Positions 10,098 through 54,085 of a DNA stretch of 54,832 nucleotides are shown here, piece by piece. The notes beneath the pieces are model-generated. The model was not told where the DNA came from, made no database searches, and saw only the letters and a list, made by a program, of their open reading frames with translations. Each line of letters begins with the position of its first letter. The first letter of the stretch is position 1. The stretch comes from Oscillatoriales cyanobacterium PMM_0080 (lineage in GTDB: Bacteria; Cyanobacteriota; Cyanobacteriia; Cyanobacteriales; Microcoleaceae), in NCBI GenBank assembly GCA_949127775.1, contig CASBQF010000092.1, positions 1 through 54,832 on the forward strand. The letters run 5' to 3'. A program made the translations under genes and the position numbers.

Positions 10098-10236
10098 CAT
10101 ATCAATTCCGGTTGCACTCCTTATGATATAGAGGAGACGGCAGTGCCGTGTCCCTACCGCGATTAATTGTAGGGACACGGCACTGCCGTCTCCTAATTTC
10201 GGTTAATAATTCCGATGCAACCGGAAACGATATCAT
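10098..10236. repeat. Nested inverted-repeat element, family A copy 1
   Basis: The outer arms carry TCAATTCCGGTTGC on the left and GCAACCGGAA on the right. The inner arms GGAGACGGCAGTGCCGTG and CACGGCACTGCCGTCTCC flank a core with ATTAATTGTA. Copies of the same plan and nearly the same length lie at 19914-20055 and 53947-54085. There is no coding capacity; it resembles a MITE. Confidence 0.85.
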
Positions 10237-10241
10237 ATCTC

Positions 10242-10379
10242 AATACGGTTCACTTAAGACAGATATCCCTGGCACACCCCTTAAAAAAGGGGGGACAAGA
10301 ATGCTCTCAAAGTCCCCCGACTATCCGGGGGATTTAGGGGGATCTCCGGCGCATAAATAGTGTTAAGTAAACCGTATTG
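10242..10379. repeat. Nested inverted-repeat element, family B
   Basis: The outer arms are CAATACGGTTCACTTAA and TTAAGTAAACCGTATTG. The inner part contains C-run/G-run hairpins (CCCCTTAAAAAAGGGG; CCCCCGACTATCCGGGGG). The outer arm sequence occurs again at about 45292-45310 (CTCAATACGGTTTACTTAAG). The element abuts family A copy 1, and the pair fills most of this intergenic region. Confidence 0.75.
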
Positions 10380-10431
10380 CGTCATAGCTATTTTTGCAAG
10401 ATATCTAGTCCTCGCGATCGGTGCTTGCACA

Positions 10432-10474
10432 AAAAAAAGAGTTGAGATTTTGGGGAAAATCTCAACTCTTTTCG
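10432..10474 (-). terminator. Rho-independent terminator of the sigma gene
   Basis: On the minus strand, AAAGAGTTGAGATTTT and its complement form a 16-bp stem around CCCC, followed by a run of eight T. It lies immediately after the sigma-factor stop codon. Confidence 0.92.
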
Positions 10475-10477
10475 TCA

Positions 10478-11482
10478 CTAACTCGCCAAGTATTCTCTGA
10501 CTTGAGATTGGCGCCGCCGCAGGTGGGCTAGGGCTTGATGTTCTAGCTGTCGCACTCTTTCGCGGCTGAGATTTAGCCGTTCTCCGACTTTCGCCAGAGA
10601 CATTTCGGTGCCGTCTTCCAAACCGAAGCGTAGAACAATTACATCTCGTTGCTGGGGGGTAAGTTCTGAGATCAAAGTATTGAGGTCTTGCCGCAGTAAT
10701 TCCGAAGTAATGTAGTTATCTGGAGATGCAGTTTCGTCCTCTAAGAGTTCTTGCAGTTCGGTATCTTGGTTATCTCCTACCCGCAAGTCCAAAGAAACTG
10801 GATGTCTTGCCATCAGCAGGTATTCCCGAATTTGGGAAGGTTGCAGTTCCAGGGCGGTGGCAATTTCCGCAGGCGAGGGAGATCTGCCCAACTGCTGGGT
10901 GAGTTCTCGCTGCACTTTTTTGATTTTATTCAGTTTTTCGGTGATGTGAATTGGTAATCGAATGGTGCGGGCGTGTTGGGCGATCGCGCGGGTGATTGCT
11001 TGCCGAATCCACCAGTACGCATAGGTAGAAAATTTGTATCCCCGCATCGGGTCAAATTTTTCGACTCCTCGTTCCAAACCGAGAGTGCCTTCTTGAATTA
11101 AATCCAAGAATTCCATATTACGTTTCTGATATTTTTTGGCGATCGCAACTACTAGGCGCAAATTCGCTTCAATCATCTTTTTCTTAGCGCGCCGTCCTAT
11201 TTGCAATATCCGGTTCAATTCAGCTTCCGTCAACTCCATTTCCGCAGCCCACTCTTCATTCGTCAGATCGCGCTGCCATTCTTTCGCAAGTGCCTGTTTT
11301 GCTTCAATTAATTTCATCATTTGCTGTACCTGCTTCCCGAAAATAATCTCTTCTTCTCGGGTTAGCAAAGGTACTCGACCGATCTCGTGCAGATAGGTAC
11401 GAACCGTATCCGTTGAGGAGTATGGCCGGGTGCCCAGGCGATCGGCTTTCACTGTTTTGGTTTTCGAGGTTGTGGTGGACAT
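10478..11482 (-). CDS. Group 2 RNA polymerase sigma-70 factor
   Basis: 334 residues with the standard group 2 plan: region 1.2 (DTVRTYLHEIGRVPLL), region 2 (MIEANLRLVVAIAKKYQKRN, FLDLIQEGTLGLERGVEKFD, the promoter-melting helix around FSTYAYWWIRQAITRAI), region 3 (LPIHITEKLNKIKK) and region 4 (helix-turn-helix LAKVGERLNLSRERVRQLEHQAL). It lacks the long acidic region 1.1 of the primary sigma factor. It resembles the cyanobacterial SigB/SigC/SigD group; I cannot assign which. The ATG at 11482 is the likely start; the frame is open back to a TTG at 11509, and AAGGAG lies 14 bases before the ATG. The gene stands alone behind a long upstream region and ends at a strong terminator. Group 2 sigma factors usually serve stress or nutrient responses. 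Confidence 0.93.
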   Translation of the reverse strand: MSTTTSKTKTVKADRLGTRPYSSTDTVRTYLHEIGRVPLLTREEEIIFGKQVQQMMKLIEAKQALAKEWQRDLTNEEWAAEMELTEAELNRILQIGRRAKKKMIEANLRLVVAIAKKYQKRNMEFLDLIQEGTLGLERGVEKFDPMRGYKFSTYAYWWIRQAITRAIAQHARTIRLPIHITEKLNKIKKVQRELTQQLGRSPSPAEIATALELQPSQIREYLLMARHPVSLDLRVGDNQDTELQELLEDETASPDNYITSELLRQDLNTLISELTPQQRDVIVLRFGLEDGTEMSLAKVGERLNLSRERVRQLEHQALAHLRRRQSQVREYLAS

Positions 11483-12377
11483 GGGTGAGTATTGCACTCC
11501 TTGTAACAACAGATAGAAAGTTGGTGATACCCTGTCCCACTCCTAAAAGTGGGATGAAGACTGCGACAGGGGGGATATTTCCCCTTCTGTTCATCGGTAA
11601 CGATCGGTATAAGCTTGTGGTTTGGGATTACTTTTGTGCTGGAAAATCCAGTAATTCCCGTCGATTTTCGGTAACTCCCTAGCTTTAACGGCTAGTTCAA
11701 GGCGAAGTGAAATTAAGTTTACTTTTCTCAATATTATTCCCAATTTTGAGGATCGTAAAGGGTAAAAACCTCTGTCTTAAGGTCAAGATTCTACATTTTT
11801 CCTTAAGGTTTTAAATTCCCTGCTAGTTTTAACTGCAACTCAACTTCACAATACTCATGCAAACAGACTCATGCAATTCGAGAACTTTTTTTGCTCTCTG
11901 TTCCATCATCGCTTGAATTTTTCTCACTGGCTAGATGCTGCGATGCGAGATAACCGAACCCGATCGCGTCGTATCTACCGGGATGTGGAATAAAGGGAAA
12001 GACGGCGAGATAGCGAGATTTAAACAAATATAAGAGCTCGCTATGGAATTATTTAAGCTTACCGATGGCGATCGGCTTAACAATACTTAACTTTATCGAA
12101 ACATTTATGGATGAGGGGTAAGAGGGTGAGGGGTAGAGACTCCTTACCCCTGGCTTGGGAATTATTTTATTTTACTTTTTTTTAGGGTGAGACTTAGCTT
12201 TCGTCCTTTTTAACCATTGTATTCAGATATATGATTCAACATTGCTAAGCACTTCTACATTTAAATTGTGTGCAAATCATCAATCAAAATCTTGTGGAAC
12301 GTTGCTCCTAGCCTGTTCCGAATTTCCAATTTAAATGCGTAACAGCTTATATCAATTATATCGATCGCCCATCCCAA
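11483..12377. other. Gene-free region upstream of the sigma gene
   Basis: About 0.9 kb without a credible reading frame. It is AT-rich and should hold the sigma-gene promoter near 11500-11750. A GAGGGGTAAGAGGGTGAGGGGTAG / CTACCCC-like segment near 12112-12160 can fold. I recognise no known RNA or element here. Confidence 0.5.
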
Positions 12378-14111
12378 CTAAAACCCCAGATCCATCTTAG
12401 CGGCTTCAGCCTCGGCAAATACTTGTTCATCAGGCATTTCTTGCCAGTCAATATCGCCGATTTCCCGATAAAATTGTTCATCGTAAGGACGAGTTTGCAC
12501 AACTACTGGCATCGGTACGGCGTGCCCCAAAACTAATGCTTGCTGTTTCGAGTCGAGTTTGGCCAAAACCGATCGCAAACTCTGGCCTCCCGAAACGCCG
12601 GTGAAAATAGCATCAATGTCCTTATCGTCGTTGAGCAAGGCTGTGATGCGAGTCCCGACTTGCGACATGACTTCGGCGTCGATGCCGGACGGGCGCTGGT
12701 CTACAATCAGCAGAGTTACGAAGTATTTTCGCATTTCGCGGGCAATTGTGCCGAAAATAGTCGATCGGACGATCGCCGGATCGAGAAAGCGGTGAGCTTC
12801 CTCAATGGTAATTACTAACGGTTGCGGCTTGTCGCACGGATTTTTGCTCTGCAAAAACTTCTCAGCTTTCCGCACGTAAGATGCGTGAATGCGGCGAGTA
12901 ATCACATTTGCTGCTAACATATATGACAGCAAATCCGAGTGCGAACCAAACTCAATTACTACATTTTTCCCACTATCCAAACACTGCAAAACTTCACTTA
13001 CATAATTTTTGGGACAGCGTTTGCGAATGTATTTCAAATCGTTTAATCGCTCTAATTTTCGCTGCAAAGCCATAATCGAAGACTTATTTCCCCGCTTTTC
13101 TTCGCAAAACATTTGAATATCTTCGTTGGTCATTTCCAGCAACTTATTGATCCAACCCTTACCCAACTCGTTGCGCAAAATAATCGCATTTTCGATACTA
13201 GCTTCCGACAAATTCAACTCGCGCTGCACCAGCGAGATATCTTCGACTTCAATTTCCTCGAAACTCAAAAACAACTCTTGAGCGTCGCGGACACCCCGGC
13301 GTTTTGTAGACTCAGGATCTAGTGTATAAATCTGAATTTTATCTGGAAATAACTGCCGCAAACCTTTGACAGTGCTGAACTGTTTTCCTTCCGAAACTGC
13401 TTCCCAGCCGTACTCCGAGTGCATATCAAAAATTAGATTAACAGCAGCTTGCTTGCGAATAATTCCCGACAGCAGCAAGCGCGTCAGAAAAGATTTTCCG
13501 GTTCCCGACTTGCCAAAAATGCCGTTGCTGCGTTCCACAAATCGGTCTAAATCCAAGCATACAGGCACGTCCATGTCAATCGGTTTGCCGATCGTAAAAT
13601 TGCGGCGATAGGGGTCATCTTCCCAGCCAAAAACCGCCCTAAAATCGGTTTCTTTGGCATCAAACACCTGGGAAAAGTGGCTGGGAATAGTTTTAACCGG
13701 CAGCAATTCAATATCGGCGCCACTTTGGGCATCAAAAGAACCCAAATTTCCTAATGCCGACTTTTTTTCGACTCCGTTACCTGTGGGATTGAAGATTGCT
13801 TGAGATTTTTCTTTTTCCGCAGTCAGCATCAACATGGGCGCAAGCTCGATCGTACCGTAGGTGCTGCTACCGGCGAGGACTGCGATCAGAAAATCGTCGT
13901 TGGGGTTGGGAGGGTTGGATAAAATGCGTCCGCTGGATGTTCCGAGAGACACGTCGGTAAGCATACAGAAAAAGTGCGATCGGACTCCGCGCACTACTAA
14001 AAATTTCCCTACTCTCATATCTTCTACCGAAACGTCGGCGTGCAGTCGCACTTCTAATCCCTTGCTGAGGGAACCTTGAATAACAGAGCCTAACGGTTTA
14101 TCAGTAGTCAT
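12378..14111 (-). CDS. HerA-type DUF87 ATPase
   Basis: 577 residues. The N-terminal about 180 residues form a beta-rich HAS-barrel-like part. The ATPase core follows, with Walker A GKSGTGKS (200-207), DMHSEYGW just after it and a Walker B-like strand with catalytic Glu in PLVITIEEAHRFLDP. An Arg-rich tail segment VGTRITALLNDD fits the arginine-finger region of the FtsK/HerA family. HerA proteins are hexameric DNA translocases, in archaea paired with the NurA nuclease for end resection; no nurA-like gene is visible nearby. The ATG at 14111 is followed by MTTDKPLGSV. It lies 124 bp downstream of the pentapeptide gene, separated by GTTAACT repeats. The role in cyanobacteria is unproven; DNA repair or segregation is plausible. 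Confidence 0.85.
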   Translation of the reverse strand: MTTDKPLGSVIQGSLSKGLEVRLHADVSVEDMRVGKFLVVRGVRSHFFCMLTDVSLGTSSGRILSNPPNPNDDFLIAVLAGSSTYGTIELAPMLMLTAEKEKSQAIFNPTGNGVEKKSALGNLGSFDAQSGADIELLPVKTIPSHFSQVFDAKETDFRAVFGWEDDPYRRNFTIGKPIDMDVPVCLDLDRFVERSNGIFGKSGTGKSFLTRLLLSGIIRKQAAVNLIFDMHSEYGWEAVSEGKQFSTVKGLRQLFPDKIQIYTLDPESTKRRGVRDAQELFLSFEEIEVEDISLVQRELNLSEASIENAIILRNELGKGWINKLLEMTNEDIQMFCEEKRGNKSSIMALQRKLERLNDLKYIRKRCPKNYVSEVLQCLDSGKNVVIEFGSHSDLLSYMLAANVITRRIHASYVRKAEKFLQSKNPCDKPQPLVITIEEAHRFLDPAIVRSTIFGTIAREMRKYFVTLLIVDQRPSGIDAEVMSQVGTRITALLNDDKDIDAIFTGVSGGQSLRSVLAKLDSKQQALVLGHAVPMPVVVQTRPYDEQFYREIGDIDWQEMPDEQVFAEAEAAKMDLGF

Positions 14112-14194
14112 TTGTCAGTTGTCAGTGGTTAGTGGTTATTTGTTAATGGTTATTTGTTATTTGTGAATGGTTAGTGAGTTGTTATTCCGCTGTC

Positions 14195-14233
14195 AACTGT
14201 TAACTGTTAACTGTTAACTGTTAACTGTTAACT
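14195..14233. repeat. GTTAACT tandem array
   Basis: About five copies of the 7-mer GTTAACT lie between the pentapeptide gene and the HerA-type gene. They are the same type as the array at 561-610. Confidence 0.8.
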
Positions 14234-14235
14234 GA

Positions 14236-15672
14236 CTATTCTGATTCTGGTGGCAATTTAAGGAAACTCGGACTCAAGTCTATATCAGTCAAATCGGTTT
14301 CGCTCAAATGAGCGTCAGTCAAAAATACGAGCTTAAAACTTGCACCTTTTAGGTTAGCACCTTTTAGGTTAGCACCTTTGAGATTAACTCGAAATAAATG
14401 AGCATCGCTCAAATCTACCTCAGTTAAATCTGCTCCCTCCAAATTTACTCTCATCAAGTCTGCTTTTCTGAGATCAGCTTCGTTTAACTTAGCGCCACTG
14501 AGGTCAGCTTTTGTTAAGTCTACACCTCTCAAGTCTGCGCCGCTCAAGTTAGCAAACAGCAAAGTAGCTCCGGTGAAATCTGTCTCTCTCAAATCGGCAT
14601 CGCTTAAATTAGCGCCGCTGAGGTCAGCTCTGGTTAAGTCTACACCCCGGAGATCGGCAGAACTCAAGTTTACTTCGTGCAAAATTGCACCGCTTAAATC
14701 GGCTCCTCTCAAGTCTGTTCCTTCCAAGTTTGCACCTTTGAGGTAAGCTTTTTTTAAGCTGGCTCTGCTGAGGTCTACATTTTTGAGATTGACTGAACTT
14801 AAGTTAGAACCGCTCAGATTAGCTCCGCTTAAATCTGACCCGTTTAAGTCGGCTCCGGTTAAGTTGACTCCTTGCAGCGATACATTGGGAGCAATTAAAT
14901 AAGCTCCGGCTTTCTGGGGGTCAATGTCTTCGGAAAATAAGGTTTGGTTGCTATAAACTGCTTTTTCTAAAATGGTGCCGCTCAAACTTGCTTCTCTCAA
15001 ATCTGCTCCGCTGAGGTTGGCTCCTACTAAGTTTGCCCGATCGAGCTTTGCTCCAAATAAAATAGCTTTGTATAAGTTTGTCCGCCGCAAATCAGCTCCT
15101 TGTAAATCGGCTCCGGTCAAATCTACCATAGCCAGATTTAATCCTGGGAGCGAGGTATTGGGAGCTAGCAAGATTGCTCCCATTTTGCCTGCGTCAATAC
15201 CTTCGGGAAAGACGGTTCGATTGTTGTAAACAGCTTTGTCTAAAATAGCGCTAGTCATTTGAGCGCCGCGAAAATCGGCGCCGCTGAGGTTGGCTCTGGT
15301 TAAGTTAGTTTCTTGGAGATTTGCTCCAACTAAATTGGCTTTGATTAAACTTGCTTGTTGGAGGTTGGCTCCGGTGAGTTCGGCTCCTACGAGAGTGGCT
15401 TCTCGGAGGACAGCACCAGTCAAATTGGCTCTGGTGAGATTGGCTAAATTTAGAAATGATTCAGCTAAATCGGCCCCGCCTAGATTCGCCCCAGTGAGGT
15501 CAGCTTCGATCAGGTCTGCATACTTGAGAATAGCCTCGCTGAAGTTGGTTTCTCGGAGGTCTGTTCCTCTGAGGTTCGCTCCCCGGAGTTCCGCACCTCC
15601 GAGGTTGGTGCCTTTAAGGGCTTGTCCTCTGAGGTCGAGCCGGTTGAGAAAGTCACCAACATTCCTGTCCAT
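14236..15672 (-). CDS. Long pentapeptide-repeat protein
   Basis: 478 residues, about 80 pentapeptides of A(N/D)LXX type. Two non-pentapeptide inserts interrupt the helix, and they resemble each other: ILDKAVYNNRTVFPEGIDAG near 135-165 and ILEKAVYSNQTLFSEDIDPQ near 235-265, each followed by an APN(T/V)SL segment. This shows that a block of about 100 residues was duplicated within the gene. It has no signal peptide or membrane segment. The ATG start lies 27 bp downstream of ribBA on the same strand, so co-transcription is likely. The function is unknown; the beta-helix may bind a partner protein. Confidence 0.9.
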   Translation of the reverse strand: MDRNVGDFLNRLDLRGQALKGTNLGGAELRGANLRGTDLRETNFSEAILKYADLIEADLTGANLGGADLAESFLNLANLTRANLTGAVLREATLVGAELTGANLQQASLIKANLVGANLQETNLTRANLSGADFRGAQMTSAILDKAVYNNRTVFPEGIDAGKMGAILLAPNTSLPGLNLAMVDLTGADLQGADLRRTNLYKAILFGAKLDRANLVGANLSGADLREASLSGTILEKAVYSNQTLFSEDIDPQKAGAYLIAPNVSLQGVNLTGADLNGSDLSGANLSGSNLSSVNLKNVDLSRASLKKAYLKGANLEGTDLRGADLSGAILHEVNLSSADLRGVDLTRADLSGANLSDADLRETDFTGATLLFANLSGADLRGVDLTKADLSGAKLNEADLRKADLMRVNLEGADLTEVDLSDAHLFRVNLKGANLKGANLKGASFKLVFLTDAHLSETDLTDIDLSPSFLKLPPESE

Positions 15673-15699
15673 TTCAATTTGCCCTTTCTATTTGTGAAC

Positions 15700-17514: not shown

Positions 17515-17720
17515 GGACGCGCGATCGATATCTGTTTGACAAGATTTCTGGACTTACTTACTACAATTACTGAATTTTGTCAATCAAAGATTGCCGGAGT
17601 ATTTCATGAGTTCGATCGAGATTGCGAGGTTCTTAGGGAAAGAGAAGGATAATTATGTTCACTCTAAATCGGAATTTTTTCGATATTGAGTAGGTCATTG
17701 CGAAAAAATAACAGTATCTT

Positions 17721-18340: not shown

Positions 18341-18548
18341 TAAACCTGTTGCATAAATCTTTGATTGATACAAAAACCGCAGATAATGGCAGATAAACGC
18401 AGATAATTTTGAGATCGTTTTCGACTGAATGCAAGATGTCTAATGTTTCCCGACGAAACCTGAGCGGTGGAAAAACTTAACGCTAAAGCTATTGCCCAAG
18501 CTCAAGTGTAGTGGGACAATATTCATATCCGCTTCAACAGTCCCTCTC

Positions 18549-19913
18549 ATGAATAACTGGCCGAAGTTCCTCCCCCTTCCTGCATCATGGGCAAAAGGTT
18601 TTGCATTAAGCAGTGGCTTTTGGCTGATTGTTTCGGTACTGCTGCCTGGATCTTATTACTACTACTACAGATTTAGCACAGCGTACTGGCGCAGCATCAG
18701 CAGTTCTGACTTTGAAGGCGCGATCGCATTTGCTTGGTTGTGCCAAATCCCGTTATTTGCTTTCTACCATTGGGGATTAGCTAAATTTGCTGAGTGGGTG
18801 GAAAGTCGCAGCCACAACCAGCAGCCGACAGTAACAGTATCGCCTTGGCTGCACTGGAGGGAAGGGTTTATCGCATTTGCTACGCTGCCGGCTGCGATCG
18901 TCATGGGAATTCCGGCTATCGCGCTTTTGATGCTGCCGCTCAGGGATTCTTCGAGCTCAATTATTGCTTTAATTCTCGGAAGTGCGATCGCATCTGCCTA
19001 TTTGTATCACTTCCGCTTTGCAAGGCTGCTTAAAATTCTTCTCAAATTTCTATGGATTTTTTATGCAGACTTGCTCAAGATATTAGAAATCTTGTTAGTT
19101 CCAACACTAACCGGTACGCCGTTTTTTCTGCTAACTGTTGCGACGGCCCAAATGATACCAAAACAACTACTACCGCTGACAACTTTTCTGTTAGTTATTT
19201 CTGTGTTTCTCAGTGGCATAGTCGGATATGCAGCTTTGCAGTATTGGTCGGCGCATTTAGTTAATTGGGCCGCGACATGGTGGCCGGCAGATTCTCCTGG
19301 TTACAGTCGGATTCAAGCTCGAAAATCTTGGAAACATAACAAAACAGCAGCCAGCCAATCTTTGGTTCGGCATACAACCAGTTGGCATTTAGCGGCGAAT
19401 GATACTACCTACCTAATTTATTTCAATTTTAGTGCGATCGTCTTTGGTGCGATCGGTTCTGTGGTGTTTGGAGAGGTGTCAACATGGTCTGCCACAGAGG
19501 AAGAGATGTTAGGATCTGTCGTGGCGCTTGTTTGGGTGGCGCAGTGGCATTTCCGGGGGTGGCCGCGCGAAGTTGAAATTGCTAGGGGTCAGCCCTCAGC
19601 CAACAGGCGATCGTCTAATCCTAATTTACCCGCTGCCGATCCGGTTGCAGTCGAACTCAACCAGCTTGCAGCCGAGTTCGGCGATACTCGGATGAGGCCT
19701 GTCAGAAAACCTGCGTCAGCAACTAAAAAGCCTAAGTCACAGCAGGCTCAGTGGTACGTATTCCGCAGCGGTAAAGCTGAGGGGCCTTATACTAAGCGGC
19801 AGTTGCGCGATGTGCAGAAGATTACCGATCGCACCAAAGTGCGGCTGGGGGATGCGGAGTGGCAACGCGCTGGTGAAATTCCACAATTAGCAGCGTATCT
19901 GACTGAGAAATAA
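18549..19913 (+). CDS. Multi-spanning membrane protein with C-terminal GYF_2 domain
   Basis: 454 residues from the ATG at 18549; the frame is open upstream, but without a good start. About seven hydrophobic segments lie between residues 15 and 330. After a polar linker comes a compact C-terminal domain (about 400-454), QWYVFRSGKAEGPYTKRQLR then LGDAEWQRAGEIPQLAAYL, typical of the GYF_2 domain that binds proline-rich partners in bacterial membrane proteins. A YYYYYRFS run follows the first helix. The substrate or role is unknown. The stop codon TAA directly abuts the family A element at 19914. Confidence 0.8.
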   Translation: MNNWPKFLPLPASWAKGFALSSGFWLIVSVLLPGSYYYYYRFSTAYWRSISSSDFEGAIAFAWLCQIPLFAFYHWGLAKFAEWVESRSHNQQPTVTVSPWLHWREGFIAFATLPAAIVMGIPAIALLMLPLRDSSSSIIALILGSAIASAYLYHFRFARLLKILLKFLWIFYADLLKILEILLVPTLTGTPFFLLTVATAQMIPKQLLPLTTFLLVISVFLSGIVGYAALQYWSAHLVNWAATWWPADSPGYSRIQARKSWKHNKTAASQSLVRHTTSWHLAANDTTYLIYFNFSAIVFGAIGSVVFGEVSTWSATEEEMLGSVVALVWVAQWHFRGWPREVEIARGQPSANRRSSNPNLPAADPVAVELNQLAAEFGDTRMRPVRKPASATKKPKSQQAQWYVFRSGKAEGPYTKRQLRDVQKITDRTKVRLGDAEWQRAGEIPQLAAYLTEK

Positions 19914-20055
19914 TTGATATCAATTCCGGTTGCAGGGCGAATTAATATTACCCAAAATCAGGAGACGGCAGTGCCGTTTCCCTACGTCAGATTAATTGTA
20001 GGGACACGGCACTGCCGTCTCCTCCATATCATTCCGGCGCAGCCGGAATTGATAT
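19914..20055. repeat. Nested inverted-repeat element, family A copy 2
   Basis: The outer arms TTGATATCAATTCCGG and CCGGAATTGATAT enclose the inner arms GGAGACGGCAGTGCCGT and ACGGCACTGCCGTCTCC around AGATTAATTGTAGGG. It has the same plan and size as 10098-10236 and 53947-54085. It begins at the stop codon of the GYF_2 gene. Confidence 0.88.
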
Positions 20056-20078
20056 GACTGCATGGCTTAAATTTTCCT

Positions 20079-20111: not shown

Positions 20112-20113
20112 GA

Positions 20114-23132: not shown

Positions 23133-24053
23133 ATGAACCAACTCAGAATTGTCTCCCTAATTCCCAGCGCCACCGAAATTGTAGCAGTTTTAGGATTAAC
23201 TGATGCCATTGTCGGTCGTTCTCACGAATGCGATTATCCGCCAGAAATTCAAAATCTACCTGTTTGCACTCAGCCTAAATTCAATCCCGAAGGAACTAGC
23301 AGCGAAATTCACAACCGCGTGACAGAATTGTTGCAAAATGCGCTCAGTGTCTATAAAGTAGAAATAGATACTTTGGAAAAATTGCAGCCAACTCACATTA
23401 TTACTCAAGCTCAATGTGAAGTCTGTGCTTGTTCTTTGGGAGAGGTTGAACAAGCAGTAAGCACGCTGGTAAATAGCAAACCAGAAATAATTTCTTTGCA
23501 GCCGAATTTGCTAGCAGAAATCTGGACGGATATTGAACGAGTTGCAGATGCTTTGGGTGTCGATGCCAAAAGTACGATCGATCTTTTACAATCCCGCATT
23601 GATGCTATTATCTTAAAAACCCAAACATTAACCGTTAAACCCACAGTAGCCTGCATCGAATGGATTGAACCTTTGATGGCTGCGGGTAACTGGATTCCCG
23701 AATTAGTCGCTATGGCGGGAGGAAATTCACTGTTTGGGGTTATCGGCGAACATTCCCCTTGGTTAAAATGGGAATCCCTAGTAGAAGCTAATCCCGATAT
23801 AATTATTTTCATGCCCTGTGGCTTTGATTTGAATCGCACCCGCATCGAAGCAATGCAGATAACTAAATATGCAGAATGGTCAAATTTGACAGCAGTAAAA
23901 ACGGGGAAAGTTTACATAACTGATGGGAATGCTTACTTTAATCGCCCTGGGCCGAGATTAGTTGATTCGTTAGAGATTTTAGCAGAAATTATCCATCCTG
24001 AAATCTTCGATTTTGGTCATAAGGGTGAGCGTTTGCAGCATTTCCTACCATAA
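23133..24053 (+). CDS. BtuF/cobalamin-binding-like periplasmic-type binding protein
   Basis: 306 residues of the helical-backbone metal/corrin-binding family (COG0614). RIVSLIPSATEIVAVLGL is the usual first strand and helix, followed by GRSHECDYP, and QCEVCACSL near residue 92 is characteristic of the 'cobalamin-binding protein' branch. The C-terminal lobe has ANPDIIIFMPCGFD and a final VDSLEILAEIIHP. There is no signal peptide, so it is probably cytoplasmic or a non-transport relative, unlike classical BtuF. No ABC permease or ATPase is adjacent and no cobalamin riboswitch is visible upstream. It is likely monocistronic. Confidence 0.8.
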   Translation: MNQLRIVSLIPSATEIVAVLGLTDAIVGRSHECDYPPEIQNLPVCTQPKFNPEGTSSEIHNRVTELLQNALSVYKVEIDTLEKLQPTHIITQAQCEVCACSLGEVEQAVSTLVNSKPEIISLQPNLLAEIWTDIERVADALGVDAKSTIDLLQSRIDAIILKTQTLTVKPTVACIEWIEPLMAAGNWIPELVAMAGGNSLFGVIGEHSPWLKWESLVEANPDIIIFMPCGFDLNRTRIEAMQITKYAEWSNLTAVKTGKVYITDGNAYFNRPGPRLVDSLEILAEIIHPEIFDFGHKGERLQHFLP

Positions 24054-24055
24054 AA

Positions 24056-24262
24056 ATCAGGACACAACAATGTTGTGTCCCTACAGAATATCTGTATTTC
24101 ACCAAATATCAGTTAATTGCAGATGATATGTGTAGGGAAACGGCACTGCCGTCTCCGGGGCTTCGCGTTCATTTCCTGCCATAAAAATCAGGACACAACA
24201 GTGTTGTGTCCCTACAGAATCGGAGATAATGTTTGTAGGGAAACGGCACTGCCGTCTCCTGA
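24056..24262. repeat. Two direct copies of paired hairpin repeats
   Basis: The unit AGGACACAACA(A/G)TGTTGTGTCC followed about 60 bp later by TAGGGAAACGGCACTGCCGT is present twice (first hairpins near 24059 and 24190). The second part is the ACGGCACTGCCGT family also seen in the 3584-4142 array. Confidence 0.85.
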
Positions 24263-26712: not shown

Positions 26713-26966
26713 GGGTTAAGTTGGATTTTAGGTTTAAGATTTTAGATTTTATATCAAATCCGCTCTTCATCGGAATACTAAATTTGTGTTAACTCTCAAC
26801 CGTTAGCCGTCAACATCATCTGACAGTACAACCAGAATTGATTTTAGATTGATTCGCTGCCTAAATGCAATATTCTCAAGATTTTAGATAAATGCCAAAT
26901 CTGAAAATAGCTACAATTTTTACGAATAAAACTAAAAAATTCAAATTTGTTGGATCAAATAAGTTG

Positions 26967-30984: not shown

Positions 30985-31719
30985 TTAAGACAGCGCAGGA
31001 ACTAACTCAGCCGTATAATCGATCGTAAAATCATATCCCGCGCGATCGTACAATTCATTCAACAACCCTTGTAAATCTACAAGTGGTTCCACATCGCCTC
31101 CCTGCAAAGGCAGCGCAAAAGCCGGAATTGCATCAGGTAGATTAAACAAATACAAATCAGCCATAGGGCGACAATCTCCCCGACTCACCAAAATTCGATA
31201 ACTTCCGTCAATATTTTCACCAAAAACTGGCAGAGGTTGGTAGCTTCGCAGCAAGTCAATTTCCACTAAGTGCGATCGACTTCCGAACACCTGATCCCGC
31301 TTTTCCTCATACATCTCGCGCCCTTTTCCCGGACGTTTATTAGCAGGTGAAAGCACCTCAATCACCGTCACAACTTCCTTACTTGCCATATCTCTAATCT
31401 CCAAATACGCTTCTCTCACCTCCTCAAACATCGGTAATCCGACTTTCAAAGGCGTAGCAGTTCGTGTCGCGACAGCTACATTAGATGAATTTGAATTTCT
31501 GGGAGTAGGATTGCGCACAATTGAAACATCAGGAATCCCAACTAACAGAGATTGTTCACCCTTGATTTCATAAATCCGCTTTTCGATCGCAACTCGATAT
31601 TTTGGCACAAGTTGAGGCACCAAAGCATCCGCAATCGCCACGATCAAACGACTGTGTACTTCCGGCCAAAAGTCAGGACTTTCTAAATAGGGATTCATCC
31701 CCGGAAATGGATTAGGCAT
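30985..31719 (-). CDS. DUF4058 protein 1, C-terminus cut by a stop codon
   Basis: 244 residues, third in transcription order of three tandem DUF4058 genes. It begins MPNPFPGMNPYLESPDFWPE, like its neighbours. Core motifs are VVTVIEVLSPANKRPG and HLVEIDLLRSYQPLPV, which recall a PD-(D/E)XK-like arrangement (my inference). Translation stops after VPALS. The bases after the TAA continue in the same frame as PDAVWADAWLRERGLKG, matching the ends of the two paralogues (EADAVWADSLLREMGLRG in the second), so a Glu codon became TAA and removed about 17 residues. The second half is nearly identical to the second copy, while the first half is closer to the third. It may still be functional. Confidence 0.8.
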   Translation of the reverse strand: MPNPFPGMNPYLESPDFWPEVHSRLIVAIADALVPQLVPKYRVAIEKRIYEIKGEQSLLVGIPDVSIVRNPTPRNSNSSNVAVATRTATPLKVGLPMFEEVREAYLEIRDMASKEVVTVIEVLSPANKRPGKGREMYEEKRDQVFGSRSHLVEIDLLRSYQPLPVFGENIDGSYRILVSRGDCRPMADLYLFNLPDAIPAFALPLQGGDVEPLVDLQGLLNELYDRAGYDFTIDYTAELVPALS

Positions 31720-31749
31720 AGTAATATATTGTTGAAATTTTCCACAGCA

Positions 31750-32535
31750 TCAACCTCTCAATCCCATCTCCCGCAACAGAGAATCAGCCCAAACAGCATC
31801 CGCTTCAGACAGTGCAGGCACGGGTTCGGTGGTATAATCGATTCTAAAATCGTAGGCGGCGCGATCGTACAATTCATTCAACAACCCTTGTAAATCTACA
31901 AGTGGTTCCGCATCGCCTCCCTGCAAAGGCAGCGCAAAAGCCGGAATTGCATCCGGTAGATTAAACAAATACAAATCAGCCATAGGGCGACAATCTCCCC
32001 GACTCACCAAAATTCGGTAACTTCCTTCAATATTGTCCCCAAAAACAGGCAGAGGTTGGTAGCTTCGCAGCAAGTCAATTTCCACTAAGTGCGATCGCCC
32101 TGCGAACACTTTATACCGCTTTTCCTCATACATATCCCGCCCTTTACCGCGCTTGTTAGTCGGCGAAAGCACTTCTATTACTGTAACTACTTTCCGAGTT
32201 TCCTGTTCGATTACCTGCAAATAACTCTCTCTAACTTCCACTGTTGTGGGCACTCTCACTCTCACAGCCGTCACAGGCGGTGCTATAACAGCGGCATTTC
32301 CAGTGCTAGAAGTTGCTTGAATTGGCGATCGCTGCACTGCCACATCGGGAATACCGACCAATAAAGCATCTTCCCCGCTGATTTGATAAATTCTTTGTTC
32401 AATGTCCACTAAATACTTCGGTAGCAGTTGCGGAGTCAAAAAATCTGCGATCGCCACTATCAACCGATTATGAACAGCCCGCCAAAAGTCAGGACTTTCT
32501 AAATAGGGATTCATCCCCGGAAATGGATTAGGCAT
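31750..32535 (-). CDS. DUF4058 protein 2
   Basis: 261 residues, intact. The start is MPNPFPGMNPYLESPDFW; motifs VVTVIEVLSPTNKR (about 114-127), GRSHLVEIDLLRSYQPLPV, RILVSRGDCRPMADLYLFNL and a C-terminal ADAVWADSLLREMGLRG. DUF4058 is expanded in filamentous cyanobacteria and has no established role. The intergenic sequence to the next copy (30 bp, with TAGTAATATATTGTTGAAAT) is the same as between copies 1 and 2, so the duplications carried the spacer. Confidence 0.85.
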   Translation of the reverse strand: MPNPFPGMNPYLESPDFWRAVHNRLIVAIADFLTPQLLPKYLVDIEQRIYQISGEDALLVGIPDVAVQRSPIQATSSTGNAAVIAPPVTAVRVRVPTTVEVRESYLQVIEQETRKVVTVIEVLSPTNKRGKGRDMYEEKRYKVFAGRSHLVEIDLLRSYQPLPVFGDNIEGSYRILVSRGDCRPMADLYLFNLPDAIPAFALPLQGGDAEPLVDLQGLLNELYDRAAYDFRIDYTTEPVPALSEADAVWADSLLREMGLRG

Positions 32536-32565
32536 AGTAATATATTGTTGAAATTTTCCACTACA

Positions 32566-33354
32566 TTAACCTCTCAATCCAGTCTCCCGCAACAAAGTAT
32601 CAGCCCAAGCAGCATCGGGTTCAGCAAGTGGCGGCACGGGTTCGGCGGTATAATCGATTTCAAAATCATATCCCGCGCGATCGTATACTTGATTAATCAG
32701 CGCCTGTAAATCCAAAACAGGCTCTACATCTTCTGGACGCAAAGGCAAGAGAAAGGCAGGAATTGGATCGGGAAGGTTAAATAAGTATAAATCTGCGATC
32801 GGACGTTGATTGCTGCGACTGACTAAAATGCGACAGTCGCTTTCATTGGAATCTCCCAAAACTGGCAAAGGTTCCCCGCCCCGCAACAAGTCTATTTCGA
32901 CTAAATGCGTACTGGTATCAAATATTTTCTTTCGCTTATTATTATACTTTTCTCGACCTTCCCCCCGACGTTTATTTGCAGGCGAAAGGACTTCAATCAC
33001 TGTAACAACCTCCTTTGTCGCCATGTCGATGACTTCTAAATATCCTTCACGAAATTCTTCCGACACTGGAATTCTAACTTTTAGAGGTTCCACGGTTCGG
33101 GAAGCGACAGCAACATTAGATGATACTGCATTAGTGGGATAGCGTTTCTGTTGAATAGAGACATCAGGAATCCCTACTAATAGAGAATTTTCACCTGGGA
33201 TTTCATAAATTCGCTTTTCAATAGCGACGCGGTATTTAGGCCGCAATTGCGGAGTTAGCGACTCTTTAATCGCACTAATCAGTAAATGATGAACTTCTGG
33301 CCAAAAGTCAGGATGTTCTAAATAGGGATTCATCCCCGGAAATGGATTAGGCAT
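32566..33354 (-). CDS. DUF4058 protein 3
   Basis: 262 residues, intact and the most divergent of the trio, first in transcription order. It carries the family start MPNPFPGMNPYLEHPDFWPE, VVTVIEVLSPANKRRG, HLVEIDLLRGGEPLPV, RILVSRSNQRPIADLYLFNL and LAEPDAAWADTLLRETGLRG. The three genes are co-directional with 30-bp gaps and probably co-transcribed. The promoter should lie in the 167-bp gap before it, which also contains CTCGCCC-type hairpins. Confidence 0.85.
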   Translation of the reverse strand: MPNPFPGMNPYLEHPDFWPEVHHLLISAIKESLTPQLRPKYRVAIEKRIYEIPGENSLLVGIPDVSIQQKRYPTNAVSSNVAVASRTVEPLKVRIPVSEEFREGYLEVIDMATKEVVTVIEVLSPANKRRGEGREKYNNKRKKIFDTSTHLVEIDLLRGGEPLPVLGDSNESDCRILVSRSNQRPIADLYLFNLPDPIPAFLLPLRPEDVEPVLDLQALINQVYDRAGYDFEIDYTAEPVPPLAEPDAAWADTLLRETGLRG

Positions 33355-46392: not shown

Positions 46393-46460
46393 GTTTTCAG
46401 AACATTGCTGAGTTCTCCTCGGATAGTATGTCCTAAGAAGCTCAGCTTGTATTTTCCAAG

Positions 46461-46519: not shown

Positions 46520-46564
46520 TTTCTAATCTTATTAAAAATTAATAGTTAATAATTAAAATTAACA

Positions 46565-47421: not shown

Positions 47422-47441
47422 TTGTATAGCAAGATTAATAT

Positions 47442-49022: not shown

Positions 49023-49077
49023 GGAGTTATCAGGACTAAAGCATTGGTATCAATAATCGCTTAAAACCCTTTTGAAC

Positions 49078-49200
49078 TCTCGGCTATAAACGAGGCCTGA
49101 TCCCCCTAAATCCCCCTTAAGAAGGGGGACTTTGAGGACACTCCGGTTCCCCCCTTCTTAAGGGGGGCTAGGGGGGATCTGGCCTCGTTTATAGCCGAGA
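49078..49200. repeat. 123-bp nested inverted-repeat element, family D
   Basis: The outer arms TCTCGGCTATAAACGAGGCC and GGCCTCGTTTATAGCCGAGA are perfect 20-bp complements. The inner hairpins CCCCCTTAAGAAGGGGG and CCCCCCTTCTTAAGGGGGG lie on each side of the centre. There is no coding capacity. It resembles family B in its C-run/G-run inner part. Confidence 0.92.
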
Positions 49201-49246
49201 AATAAATATAAATTGCTGACTACAAACTATTATTAAAGGAGAAAAT

Positions 49247-50131: not shown

Positions 50132-50154
50132 AATATTCAAATATAGGTTCGTAT

Positions 50155-50210
50155 ATAGTAGGGACACGGCACTGCCGTCTCCTAATTTCTAGTGCTGCCG
50201 TCTCCTAATT
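50155..50210. repeat. Partial family A inner arms
   Basis: GTAGGGACACGGCACTGCCG TCTCCTAATTTC is followed by a second truncated copy, GTGCTGCCGTCTCCTAATTTC. It looks like half of a family A element with a small duplication. Confidence 0.8.
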
Positions 50211-50305
50211 TCTTGTCCCAAAATTTAGCTAACATGAGCTAGATCATATTCGTTGCTACGCGTCAATGGCATAGTAAAATAGTCATTTCTACCAGATACT
50301 TTCCA

Positions 50306-50794
50306 ATGCTAACAATATTTTCTCGGACTTTAAATTTATCCCCTCGCGCTTCCGAAGCCCTGCTTTCACTTCCATTAACTAGCTTGCTAGATTCACCGGA
50401 ATTCAATCAACTTTTGGGAAGTCTGGACACTACTTTGCTCAAAGAAAGTTTGCCTACTGCTGGCGCTGTCTTAGCCCAAAAACTCCCAGCTTTTTATGAC
50501 TGGTTGCAAACAGAATTAGGCATTAAGAATGTCCCTGATAGTCCCGATCATGCTACCAAATGGGTAGTCGGTTTTCTGAAGAATCAAGAAAGTTTAACTC
50601 GTTTAGTTGAGATGCACAAATCGATTCCAAGACTTGCATTAGATCGATCGATTCCTCGCTTGGTTAGCGCCTTTGATGAGGTTCAACCCACCGCCGTCAA
50701 GGAAGAGTGGCAAAAAGCGATCGCAGCGCTTTGTCTGGTACTCGCCGTCGCAGCGCGTCAAAATCAGCCATCTAGCGATTTGGTGTCAGTTTAG
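50306..50794 (+). CDS. Protein of unknown function (162 aa)
   Basis: I do not recognise the family. It is soluble and mostly helical, with Leu-rich segments (PRASEALLSLPLTSLLDSPE, KEEWQKAIAALCLVLAVAAR) and a hydrophobic C-terminal helix that might bind membrane or a partner. Its start is ATG at 50306 without a clear ribosome-binding site. It ends 4 bp inside the 3' end of the convergent hydrolase gene. Confidence 0.65.
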   Translation: MLTIFSRTLNLSPRASEALLSLPLTSLLDSPEFNQLLGSLDTTLLKESLPTAGAVLAQKLPAFYDWLQTELGIKNVPDSPDHATKWVVGFLKNQESLTRLVEMHKSIPRLALDRSIPRLVSAFDEVQPTAVKEEWQKAIAALCLVLAVAARQNQPSSDLVSV

Positions 50795-51624
50795 GTAAAA
50801 TCGCTGTTTCGGAAAAGTTGTAATTGGTTGGGGTATATCTGAACTACGACGGGCTTTTTCCTGTTTAGGACGATCGCATTATGCCGATTTAGCAAAAGCC
50901 AATGAGCCAACATTACCACCAACACCCGCCTTTTCCGAAACTTTTGATCAAAACTGGCCATTTGGACGATCGCCTCTTCAATCTTATACCACCAGTTTTT
51001 CCCTTTCTGAGAAATTACAAAAGTCGTTCCCGGTATATAATCCCCTCGATTCGCCCAGAAAGCATACCTTTCGCCTAAAGTAAAGTAGTGAAAAACATTC
51101 ATAGCTGTAGAAGCTTGAACCAATTTTTGGGAAACACCCAAAGCATTAAAAGTGACAGTCGATCGCATATAATCTGGGTATGTAGCAGCAATTTGCTGAG
51201 CAACTTTCCCGCCCAAACTTTCTCCGATCACATCAGCCGGATTCCCACTCTCAAACTGCTGCTTTAGCCAATCAATAGCGCCCACAGTCTCCGCCGATTT
51301 TAACTGTCGCTTCAATCTTGCCATAAACACATCTGGCGTATCTTCCAAAACGCGATCGAAAGGATACCATGAACCGTAGCCTCGAATTACCAAAATCGGC
51401 GTAGCTTTATATGTTATACTAGAGCGAGCTTCAGCATAAAAACCTGTTTTACAATCTTCAAACACTTTTTCTACTAGATAATCATGCACGAATTCTCCTT
51501 CCTGATGTCGGACATAAATTGAAGGATTATTCGGCTTGAAAGTATCGTGTAGTTGGGGTTTGGCAAACTTTTCATAGATCGCATCTAGTGAATGCCTTCC
51601 GGTTTTGCGATCGACAAAATTCAA
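50791..51624 (-). CDS. Alpha/beta-hydrolase (lipase-like)
   Basis: 277 residues. PILVIRGYGSWYPFD is the strand and oxyanion region, and VIGESLGGKVAQQIA carries the nucleophile elbow G-E-S-L-G (Ser near 139), as in lipases and esterases. The C-terminal third is basic and has no obvious catalytic His context. There is no signal peptide. The only usable start is a TTG at 51624 without a ribosome-binding site. Just upstream, ATGGATCAATAAAG would give a normal start if one base were restored, so a frameshift at the N-terminus is possible. It converges with the 162-aa gene, overlapping by 4 bp. Confidence 0.72.
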   Translation of the reverse strand: MNFVDRKTGRHSLDAIYEKFAKPQLHDTFKPNNPSIYVRHQEGEFVHDYLVEKVFEDCKTGFYAEARSSITYKATPILVIRGYGSWYPFDRVLEDTPDVFMARLKRQLKSAETVGAIDWLKQQFESGNPADVIGESLGGKVAQQIAATYPDYMRSTVTFNALGVSQKLVQASTAMNVFHYFTLGERYAFWANRGDYIPGTTFVISQKGKNWWYKIEEAIVQMASFDQKFRKRRVLVVMLAHWLLLNRHNAIVLNRKKPVVVQIYPNQLQLFRNSDFT

Positions 51625-51670
51625 CTTTATTGATCCATACTAAACTAAAAACGATCTAAAAAAGGTTCCT

Positions 51671-51716
51671 AGTGAGGACTTTAGTCCTCAGAAAAAGAAG
51701 GACTAAAGTCCTCACT
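51671..51716. repeat. Inverted repeat with perfect 18-bp arms
   Basis: AGTGAGGACTTTAGTCCT and AGGACTAAAGTCCTCACT flank a 10-base loop. It lies between hom and the hydrolase gene. A degenerate copy lies at 5590-5635. Confidence 0.88.
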
Positions 51717-51734
51717 ACGAACCTTGTACAACTT

Positions 51735-53033
51735 TTACAAAACTCGCAACGTGCTGGCAATACTATCGACTGCTTCCATCGCGCGAATTTCATCAAGTGC
51801 TTGTTGGAAATTCCCTTCCTTAACATCGTGAGTCACGACGACAATTTCTGCTAAATCGCCGTGAATTCCCGTCTGCACAATTGATTCCAAACTAACTTGG
51901 TGGTTGCCAAAACAAGTGCCGAGTTTGCCAATAACCCCCGGAGTATCCCCAGTCAAAAAACGAGCATAAAAGCGCGTTACAAGTTCCTGCATTGGAGCTA
52001 TTTTGCAGTAGTGTTGGTGACTGCAACTCAGCAAAGGATGGGGAATGGGAACAGTTTCGGTTTTCAGGATAGCAGCCACATTCAAAATGTCCGATACCAC
52101 CGCGCTAGCTGTGGGCCCAGCACCTGCACCGCGCCCGTATAGCATCAATTGCCCGATCGCATCTCCTTCGACTAAAATTGCGTTATAAACACCATTAACA
52201 CTCGCCAGCGGATGAGTTTTCGGTACAAAAGTAGGATGCACTCGAATTGAAAGCATCTCTGTATCCGTTGTTGACTGGATATTTTGAGCAATAGCCAACA
52301 ATTTAATCACAAATCCCAGCTTATCGGCGTAGTCAATATCAGCCGCACTAACTTGTCTGATACCTTCGCAGTGAATATCTGCTAAATTGATGCGCCCGCC
52401 AAAAGCTAACGAGGCTAAAATAGCAATTTTATCAGCCGCATCTAATCCATCCACATCTGCTGTGGGGTCAGCTTCAGCATAACCTAATTGCTGAGCGTCC
52501 GCGAGGACTTCGCCAAAGTCTGCACCTTCTGTCTGCATCCGCGTCAGGATGTAATTAGTTGTGCCGTTAACGATGCCCGTGACACTTTTGATGCGGTTTG
52601 CACCTAAAGATTGTTTGAGGGTTTGAATGACCGGAATGCCGCCGCCCACAGCAGCTTCTAACATCACATAAACACCTTTTGCATTAGCCGCGTCGAAGAT
52701 TTCACTACCGTAGCGGGCGATAACTGCTTTGTTGGCGGTGACTACGTGCTTCCCGTTGGCGATAGCTTGCAGAATGAGCGATCGCGCCGGTTCCAATCCG
52801 CCAATCAACTCTACTACAATATCAATTTCTGGGTCAGTGGCGATCGCCTCTAGGTCAGTTGTCAGCACATTTTCTGGCAATTGTAAAGACCGAGTTCGAG
52901 AAATATCGCGCACTCCCACCCGACAAATTTCCAATTCCTGCAACAGCGGATGACGGCCATCTGGGGAGAGCAAAATCTCTGCTGTTCCCGCGCCAACTGT
53001 ACCTAAACCTAGCAAACCAATTTTGAAAGCCAC
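51735..53033 (-). CDS. hom: Homoserine dehydrogenase
   Basis: 432 residues, the normal length for the ACT-containing form. It reduces aspartate semialdehyde to homoserine on the way to threonine and methionine. The NAD(P)-binding site is GLLGLGTVGAGTAEIL, followed by VVELIGGLEPARSLI and ANKAVIA. The catalytic part has EAAVGGGIPVIQTLKQSL, GIVNGTTNYIL and GYAEADPTADVDGLDAADK. The last about 80 residues form an ACT domain (VIGKLGTCFGNHQVSLESIV), the usual site of threonine feedback. The ATG at 53033 is clear. It is monocistronic by appearance. Confidence 0.96.
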   Translation of the reverse strand: MAFKIGLLGLGTVGAGTAEILLSPDGRHPLLQELEICRVGVRDISRTRSLQLPENVLTTDLEAIATDPEIDIVVELIGGLEPARSLILQAIANGKHVVTANKAVIARYGSEIFDAANAKGVYVMLEAAVGGGIPVIQTLKQSLGANRIKSVTGIVNGTTNYILTRMQTEGADFGEVLADAQQLGYAEADPTADVDGLDAADKIAILASLAFGGRINLADIHCEGIRQVSAADIDYADKLGFVIKLLAIAQNIQSTTDTEMLSIRVHPTFVPKTHPLASVNGVYNAILVEGDAIGQLMLYGRGAGAGPTASAVVSDILNVAAILKTETVPIPHPLLSCSHQHYCKIAPMQELVTRFYARFLTGDTPGVIGKLGTCFGNHQVSLESIVQTGIHGDLAEIVVVTHDVKEGNFQQALDEIRAMEAVDSIASTLRVL

Positions 53034-53165
53034 GACTTTGACCCGTAGAAACTCTAATCTACAATCATTGTATGCTAATCAAGCAATTTGTCATTTAACT
53101 AAGCTCAATATCCAGATACCAGACTTTTTCAAGAAATCTGGTATCTAATTTGATATGATGACAAT

Positions 53166-53879
53166 CTAAAGTTCTGAATCTATGTCTACCCCCATTTCTC
53201 GGAGTCGCTGGGCCAATCTTTCAACTTGCTGTCCTAGTTCCTGATTTTGCTGTTCTAGCTGCTGTAGCTGTGCTTCTTCTGCTCGAATTAAATCTTCTAC
53301 TAGCGGCGGACATAGCACTTGATTTACCGATAAAATAAATTCAGCGAACTGTACAGACTGAAGTTGCTGTCCCGGCAAAAATTCTTGGTGAGAATAACTC
53401 CCTTCATTTTCGGGACGGCTACACACTCGTATTTTCAGTAAATTGGGGTCTACAATCCAATATTCAGGGATATCAATTAAGTCATATTCTGCCCGTTTAC
53501 GGATGTAGTCGTCCCGCCAATTTTGACTGGTAACTTCAATCACTAACAGCGGTTTTTCTTCAAATTCCAGCACTGCGGAACCAGGTTGCGCGCAGACTTG
53601 TTCCCAAAGACTCCGAGTGCAAATCACCACATCAGGAACGCGCGAAGAGTTTTCCTCGGTTCGGACTGCGGTAGTCACAACTGCAACTAGCGGTAGATTG
53701 TGTGCTGCAAAGAAGCGTCGAAACTGGCAAACCAAAAATTCAATGATTTTGATATGTATAGCTGTGGGTGTTGGCATTTCAATTATCTGTCCCCGATATA
53801 ATTCATAACAAACACCCGATTCTCCCTCATAGTCGAGATACTCTTGAAATGTGAGTTTTTGGGTAGAAATTAATACCAT
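53166..53879 (-). CDS. Uma2-family PD-(D/E)XK protein
   Basis: 237 residues of the Uma2 (DUF820) family, greatly expanded in cyanobacteria. The nuclease-like core shows FQEYLDYEGESGVCYELYRG, RVPDVVICT and LVIEVTSQNWRDDYIRKRAE (the D...E-x-T/S pattern of the PD-(D/E)XK fold), then EYWIVDP. The C-terminal about 45 residues are a coiled coil (EEAQLQQLEQQNQELGQQVE). Biological targets of the family are not established. ATG at 53879. The 3' flank shows ATACCAGACTTTTTCAAGAA / TTGATATGATG AT-rich sequence without a clear terminator. Confidence 0.9.
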   Translation of the reverse strand: MVLISTQKLTFQEYLDYEGESGVCYELYRGQIIEMPTPTAIHIKIIEFLVCQFRRFFAAHNLPLVAVVTTAVRTEENSSRVPDVVICTRSLWEQVCAQPGSAVLEFEEKPLLVIEVTSQNWRDDYIRKRAEYDLIDIPEYWIVDPNLLKIRVCSRPENEGSYSHQEFLPGQQLQSVQFAEFILSVNQVLCPPLVEDLIRAEEAQLQQLEQQNQELGQQVERLAQRLREMGVDIDSEL

Positions 53880-53946
53880 GTTTAGTCATCTCCCTTTTTC
53901 GGTGAGCTTACTGTAGTATATTGTACTCTTTTTATTGGGGATTGCT

Positions 53947-54085
53947 ATATCATATCGTTTCCGGTTGCATCGGAATTATTAGCAGCCCAAATGAGGAGAC
54001 GGCAGTGCCGTGTCCCTACAATTAATCGTAGGGACACGGCACTGCCGTCTCCTCTATCTCATTCCGGCGTAGCCGGAATTGAGAT
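53947..54085. repeat. Nested inverted-repeat element, family A copy 3
   Basis: The outer arms TTTCCGGTTGCATCGGAATT and ATTCCGGCGTAGCCGGAATT are each also a small hairpin. The inner arms GAGGAGACGGCAGTGCCGTG and CACGGCACTGCCGTCTCCTC enclose ATTAATCGTAGGG. It matches copies 1 and 2 in plan and length. Confidence 0.88.

Follow-up and report, generated by a model that had tools for sequence, protein, structure and literature searches.

What are the look-alike elements that occur three times in a single cyanobacterial contig, and how did they come to be there? The stretch in question, which we call the window, is the 54,832-nt contig CASBQF010000092.1 of Oscillatoriales cyanobacterium PMM_0080 (C92 among the 431 contigs of a 6.36 Mb host assembly with 96% completeness). 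A first-pass annotation had described three elements that share an ATTAAT core and inverted repeats nested at two levels, and took them for a defined mobile or RNA-structured unit. The elements are present where they were placed, with both repeat levels and the core. We show that the three copies are small, non-coding miniature inverted-repeat transposable elements (MITEs) of ~135 bases, in which transposon ends enclose a pair of short palindromes. Very probably they belong to a family with the ends of an IS630-like insertion sequence (IS), a TNA target (N being any base), a cargo resembling a dimer of repetitive extragenic palindromes (REPs) and a transposase supplied in trans. The idea of a defined mobile unit is borne out by TNA duplications, by empty orthologous sites and by insertion sequences with matching ends.

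Ends, target duplications and empty sites

The borders of the elements were redrawn as TATC...GATA, with GAGA in place of GATA at the terminus of copy 3. Not counting the 3-bp duplication, they measure 133, 137 and 132 bp, where 139-142 bp had been given earlier. Copy 1 had also been credited with perfect AATTCCGG/CCGGAATT outer arms; its actual arms are CAATTCCGG / CCGGAAACG. All three elements have terminal inverted repeats of the TATC...GATA kind, copy 1 lying in the opposite orientation to copies 2 and 3. They are short and non-coding: among elements of 125-145 bp, a frame remains open through the element and 150 bp on each side in one of the 41 tested.

The target duplications that the first-pass annotation had proposed to look for are there. 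We aligned candidate pairs of arms on TATC...GATA, with a span of 60-180 bp in the host genome and with overlapping or nested pairings left in. Identical 3-bp flanks were found at 25 of the 37 host pairs, and every one of them is a TNA triplet (TCA 9, TAA 7, TGA 6, TTA 3), while shifting the flanks by 1, 2, 3, 5 or 8 bases left 0, 1, 0, 2 and 0 identical pairs out of 37. Identical flanks were likewise seen in genus relatives, at 11 of 19 pairs, and at 48 of 63 pairs in loci from a broader contig collection. As for the constant length that had been claimed, it applies to 20 of the 25 duplication-flanked host pairs (132-138 bp) and not to the rest.

Could such hairpins arise by chance, or could palindromes grow in place by replication slippage? 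The window does hold several tandem and simple repeats. However, the inner-arm motif GGAGACGGCAGTGCCGT has 42 matches in the window, at 21 palindromic sites, where 0.06 are expected from shuffled sequence (both strands, up to three mismatches), and TTCCGGTTGCA has 7 against an expected 1.25 (up to one mismatch). Across the 6.36 Mb assembly the outer-arm pattern is found 400 times (199 + 201 places), compared with 3 times for a reversed-pattern control at up to three mismatches. These counts and the common length speak against this explanation, and the duplications and empty sites refute it; its probability is negligible.

Filled and empty orthologous sites, a comparison that had likewise been proposed, were recovered with base precision at four host sites, one of which is that of copy 2 in the window. 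Six loci in relatives have both anchors of this site. The host reads AAT-TGA-TATC...GATA-TGA-CTGC, whereas two of them (L119 in genome G017 and L126 in G008) read AATTGACTGC without the element, two (L124 and L128) have an uninterrupted AATTGACTGC with different sequence before it, one (L129) holds unrelated sequence, and the sixth (L127) is described below. Joined-flank queries were then made for five host sites out of 19 candidates, and the loci they matched were extracted. At the L031 site none of five relative loci has the element; four of them show a single TCA, and the remaining one shows TGA. Both relative loci of the L025 site are empty as well, one with TCA and one with CCA. Of the five relative loci of the L012 site, one is empty and keeps one TAA, and three carry other sequence. 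The fifth, L376, has an insertion of its own: it and the host element sit in the two arms of one terminator-like hairpin, two independent insertions in different genomes. Copy 3 is missing from all 12 relative loci (11 genomes) with both anchors, in a spacer too diverged for the junction to be base-precise. Since the empty sites keep one triplet and have no added TA, they speak against a TA duplication for these insertions.

The same evidence bears on the possibility that the elements are conserved RNA structures, such as terminators or mRNA stabilisers, maintained by selection and not mobile as units. The palindromes are strong, 40 of the 41 elements lie outside any frame open as described above, and copy 2 has a stop codon on one side and a convergent tRNA-Phe gene on the other. 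At one pair within the inner palindromes, columns 39/101 of the alignment, 12 of 41 sequences have a double change that preserves the pairing (21 G-C, 11 C-G, 1 U-G and 8 unpaired). That said, double changes occur at only 2 of the 28 pairs, and the covariation term of the consensus fold, +0.32 kcal/mol, gives no net support. At gathering scores Rfam finds tRNA alone in the window. TNA duplications, clean empty sites and the absence of the element at orthologous sites count against selection on an RNA as the main explanation, which we hold to be very improbable. Of the two alternatives in the first-pass annotation, the mobile unit stands and the RNA-structured one finds little support in covariation.

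Table 1. Elements, inner palindromes and target duplications in the window
Feature	Position	Strand	Remark
Target site duplication TCA, left of copy 1	10097..10099	.	
MITE copy 1, 133 bp	10100..10232	+	TATCAATTCCGG...CCGGAAACGATA
Inner GTAG-tagged palindrome, first of copy 1 tail-to-tail pair	10133..10157	-	GTAG end inwards
Inner GTAG-tagged palindrome, second of copy 1 pair	10169..10193	+	
Target site duplication TCA, right of copy 1	10233..10235	.	
Target site duplication TGA, left of copy 2	19915..19917	.	directly 3' of the stop codon of open reading frame 18492-19913
MITE copy 2, 137 bp	19918..20054	-	base-precise empty site in two same-genus genomes
Inner GTAG-tagged palindrome, first of copy 2 pair	19961..19985	-	
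Inner GTAG-tagged palindrome, second of copy 2 pair	19998..20022	+	
Target site duplication TGA, right of copy 2	20055..20057	.	single TGA in empty sites
Target site duplication TCA, left of copy 3	53950..53952	.	
MITE copy 3, 132 bp	53953..54084	-	missing from orthologous spacer of relatives
Inner GTAG-tagged palindrome, first of copy 3 pair	53995..54019	-	
Inner GTAG-tagged palindrome, second of copy 3 pair	54028..54052	+	
Target site duplication TCA, right of copy 3	54085..54087	.	

A possible fourth, degenerate element without a GTAG pair lies at 26752-26843. It starts with TATC and has TTA on both sides, and the identity of its ends is weak (15 and 17 of 25 bases, where the maximum for random 25-mers is 15).

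Matching insertion sequences and the presumed helper

Full-length relatives, which have matching ends and encode a transposase, were found in other genomes of the genus. In Microcoleus sp. FACHB-61 two arms of this type enclose a 1,154-bp element (L184). It is flanked by TAA at either end and contains a disrupted reading frame, and the pieces of its protein matched helix-turn-helix and DDE_3 models below their curated cut-offs. An 84-residue piece of this transposase has relatives in 19 of 29 genus genomes. Of the 30 transposase loci scanned, seven hold a full-length element with TATC ends and identical TNA triplets. Four of these, 1,153-1,156 bp long, have near-identical ends (L267 with TAA, L268 with TGA, L269 with TAA and L274 with TAA), and three of 1,152-1,176 bp have kindred ones (L272 with TGA, L273 with TGA and L286 with TAA). 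L267 and L184 have identical flanking bases and are probably one and the same copy.

The likeness of the ends is close. The left arm of copy 1 agrees with one end of L268 at 32 of 32 bases, including the variant CACTCCTTATGATATAG that L268 carries, and the six arms in the window reach best identities of 20-25 over their first 25 bases, compared with a mean of 8.1 and a maximum of 15 for 300 random 25-mers from the window. The transposase is encoded in two frames that overlap at a run of eight A residues and would be joined by a programmed frameshift. Its second frame scores 147 bits (L272) and 122 bits (L269) against the IS630 model NF033545, for which the cut-off is 100, and its D, D and E motifs can be recognised, the second D and the E being separated by 31 residues. 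IS630 elements duplicate TA on insertion. The seven elements here have identical TNA triplets instead, and because of these triplets and the empty sites without an added TA we call the helper IS630-like.

Other candidates for the helper fared worse. A TNA duplication would suggest an IS5-type enzyme, yet the host has no match to PF13359 and three to PF01609, none of them with convincing TATC ends. DUF4096 proteins match in 21 of 29 genus genomes, and none of 30 such loci has inverted ends that start with TATC next to identical triplets. One locus from this search, L163, does have TGA triplets, with unrelated ends.

From these comparisons we propose the following course of events. The outer arms (TATC-R-N-TTCCGG..., ~25-35 bp) are the two ends of an IS of ~1,155 bp that encodes an IS630-type DDE transposase. 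Acting in trans, this transposase would recognise the ends, move the element and insert it at a TNA triplet, which is duplicated in the process. In place of the interior of the IS, the MITEs have two GTAG-tagged, REP-like palindromes, arranged tail to tail and with an AT-rich core, as a cargo that travels along with the ends. Such a cargo might have arisen when a REP inserted into a small, internally deleted element, or by template switching. The MITEs were probably moved in trans by an IS630-like transposase; we infer both that the enzyme found here is the mover and what the chemistry of the single steps is. As for the helper in trans that the first-pass annotation thought necessary, genus relatives hold an IS with matching ends and an IS630-type transposase, and no helper gene was found in the host assembly. 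Without such a gene, the host family may now be stranded.

Several observations weigh against this interpretation. In the host, the 84-residue query found no IS630 relative in the assembly (G000; 431 contigs, 96% completeness). Twelve of the 37 host pairs lack identical flanks; several of these are overlapping or spurious pairings, and others are true exceptions, e.g. L007 (TTA/CTA) and L022 (TAA/TGA). Most of the other loci among the 30 transposase loci show no TATC ends, and in L270, where the two ends lie 846 bp apart, the triplets are not identical. The first frame of the transposase, taken alone, scores 71 and 59 bits, under the IS630 cut-off, and a TNA target differs from the TA of IS630. 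The sites L004 and L020 yielded no clean empty site in relatives, the flanks of copy 1 are too poorly conserved there for an empty-site comparison, and no transposition event has been observed.

The inner palindromes as cargo

Each inner arm consists of GTAG and the imperfect palindrome GGACACGGCACTGCCGTCTCC, with the GTAG ends facing inwards. The inner pair is a tail-to-tail dimer of GTAG-tagged, REP-like palindromes, a cargo rather than a second set of transposon ends. As expected of such REPs, the unit is a short palindrome beside GTAG that is present in many copies and in dimers. Single and tandem copies of it are also found at other places in the window. At 3583-4118 there is a tandem array of 11 GTAG-tagged palindromes in units of ~47 and ~61 bp, and at 24038-24259 two copies of a ~131-bp unit with TTGTGTCC-type and GTAG-type palindromes.

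An obvious alternative is that the inner pair is itself the mobile unit, put into pre-existing outer palindromes by a REP-associated tyrosine transposase (RAYT) of the Y1 type. There is a precedent in Anabaena variabilis, where GTAG-15 dimers are reported to be inserted within long palindromes (PMC3733652). In the window, GTAG palindromes lie outside outer arms at 3583-4107, 20874, 24132-24259 and 50158, and the copy 3 spacer of two relatives without the MITE ends holds a lone GTAG palindrome of GGACACGGCAGTGCCGT type (L304/L326 in G014 and L309 in G020). Moreover, 28 of 29 genus genomes have Y1 transposases, and five of the Y1 loci (L337-L341) have GTAG-TGAGGACTTTAGTCC-type palindromes around them. 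Against this, the outer arms as well are missing from the empty sites, and they are the ends of an insertion sequence. The host gave no Y1 match at all, in a search whose control was positive in 5 of 14 genomes, and none of the 30 Y1 loci inspected in relatives contains the inner palindrome or any other of GGACACGGCA type. We regard this alternative as very unlikely; for the whole unit the empty sites disfavour it. As the mover of the whole unit we reject a RAYT on two of these results, no host match and no palindrome in 30 loci.

The loci L337-L341, four of which have 203-residue frames, are candidate RAYT-REP pairs of the genus in their own right. Another GTAG palindrome, GGTGCGCAATGCGCACC, occurs at the Y1 loci L351 and L352.

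If the palindromes are cargo between IS630-like ends, can other cargo be found between the same ends? Among 52 duplication-flanked pairs from the contig collection, counted with nested pairings left in, 19 hold heptamer arrays, 11 an GGGCGCAAGC palindrome, 9 CTCTGTG-type repeats, 7 a GTAG palindrome and 6 something else. In the host 25 of 28 loci carry the GTAG type and 3 carry other cargo, and in relatives 12 of 12 are of the GTAG type. The last two shares are biased, because most of these loci came from searches with a GTAG-bearing element (L001-L030 and, among the relatives, L082-L099); for L031-L060 the query was just the outer arm. One host element of 77 bp, L049, has no inner pair and is either an empty form or a deletion.

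The sixth locus at the copy 2 site (L127, genome G004) adds a further case. A different element has inserted there at the exact TGA used by copy 2, with ends like those of L286 and L273 and with a GTAG-TGTGGACTTTAGTCC dimer inside; the palindromes of L337-L341 are kindred to this one. A second set of IS630-like ends seems, by these resemblances, to carry a second REP family as a head-to-head dimer.

We tentatively extend this to a broader idea, which we think possible but somewhat doubtful. One set of IS630-like ends may serve as a shuttle with interchangeable cargo in filamentous cyanobacteria, having picked up repeats unrelated to one another (GTAG dimers, TTGACTG heptamer arrays, CTCTGTG repeats and GGGCGCAAGC palindromes), each kind spread through different genomes. 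Much of the unexplained load of dispersed repeats, including REP-like palindromes without a resident RAYT, would then have been moved by a DDE transposase that uses a TNA target.

How abundant is the family? At looser thresholds, 20 outer arms and 51 inner palindromes were counted in the window together with twenty sample contigs (180,553 bases), which were picked by number with C2, C15 and C19 left out. From these and the pattern counts we estimate some 200 elements in the host genome, as an order of magnitude. Scores cover 40 of 459 candidates in the host and up to 22 per genome in the genus search, and the first 100 of the 400 outer-arm places were located; the copy counts are therefore pattern matches and not curated elements. 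Copy 2 as a query matched in 23 of 23 same-genus genomes (E <= 0.001), where some matches may rest on the inner palindromes only. In a broader scan of contigs (80 of 103 stretches) the outer arm was found in Microcoleus, Tychonema, Symploca, Microseira and metagenome-assembled genomes (MAGs) of Oscillatoriales, among others. It also occurs there in two contigs labelled as Archaeoglobi and Burkholderiaceae MAGs (L206 and L229), likely a result of binning contamination. Neither plasmids nor the scanned part of a set of viral contigs gave a match, in collections from which records near the host genome may be missing. In the host contigs C106, C113, C238 and C311 element matches begin at base 7, which indicates that these repeats break the assembly.

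Two further features of the window stand apart from the elements. Three tandem paralogous open reading frames of 244-262 aa lie at 30985-33354 with a period of ~816-819 bp, and a frame at 14236-15672 runs across a series of 15-bp repeats and probably encodes a pentapeptide-repeat protein.

Comparison with known systems

MITEs, IS630, GTAG-tagged REPs and REP dimers inside palindromes are all known. Bacterial MITEs derived from insertion sequences are reviewed in PMC10969869, and ours are alike in being short and non-coding, with terminal inverted repeats, a target duplication, a mostly intergenic location and a full-length relative with the same ends. They differ in their core, where GTAG-tagged, REP-like palindromes are paired tail to tail, and in that the same ends in other cyanobacteria carry heptamer arrays and other repeats. 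Nezha (Zhou et al. 2008) is also a MITE of cyanobacteria.

The helper resembles IS630 and the IS630-Tc1-mariner group in its second frame, which in L269 and L272 is above the NF033545 cut-off, in its D, D, E motifs and in its two frames overlapping at A8. It is unlike them in the 3-bp TNA duplication found here in place of TA. In PMC7386202, TA is called classical for Tc1/mariner, and for pogo elements of the Fot and Fot-like kinds duplications of TAA and TAAA are reported.

For the inner pair we follow the tail-to-tail terminology of Di Nocera et al. 2013 (PMC3733652). GTAG-tagged REPs and their dimers, as presented in that paper, share with our unit the short palindrome tagged with GTAG, its repetition and the tail-to-tail arrangement, and for Anabaena variabilis the authors describe REP dimers that lie within outer palindromes. 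Unlike in that account, the outer palindromes here have been identified as the ends of a transposon, flanked by duplications, and the host genome gave no Y1 transposase. MITEs that hold other repeats also have parallels, namely QMITE2 of Coxiella burnetii, which contains a GTAG REP (PMC10969869), and a minisatellite-bearing MITE of Porphyromonas gingivalis, which holds a tandem repeat (PMC4596501). These are single families from unrelated bacteria, and the available portions of the two sources do not state that different cargo lies between the same ends.

In the literature we could search, no paper came up that treats this element, a cyanobacterial IS630-like element with a TNA target or MITEs whose cargo differs while their ends agree; the evidence of novelty is weak, as subscription papers fell mostly outside the search. 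As far as searched, and with Nezha compared by mention only, the novelties are this MITE family, the recognition that the outer palindromes are transposon ends, a TNA target established through empty sites and the variety of cargo that one set of ends carries. The base-precise empty sites tie an IS630-like transposase to a 3-bp TNA target. Our results also suggest a concrete reading for the outer palindromes around the REP dimers of Anabaena variabilis. Where REP-like pairs are abundant although a search of the genome gives no REP transposase gene, we offer the explanation that they ride inside MITEs, an example of one repeat riding on another to spread through a genome.

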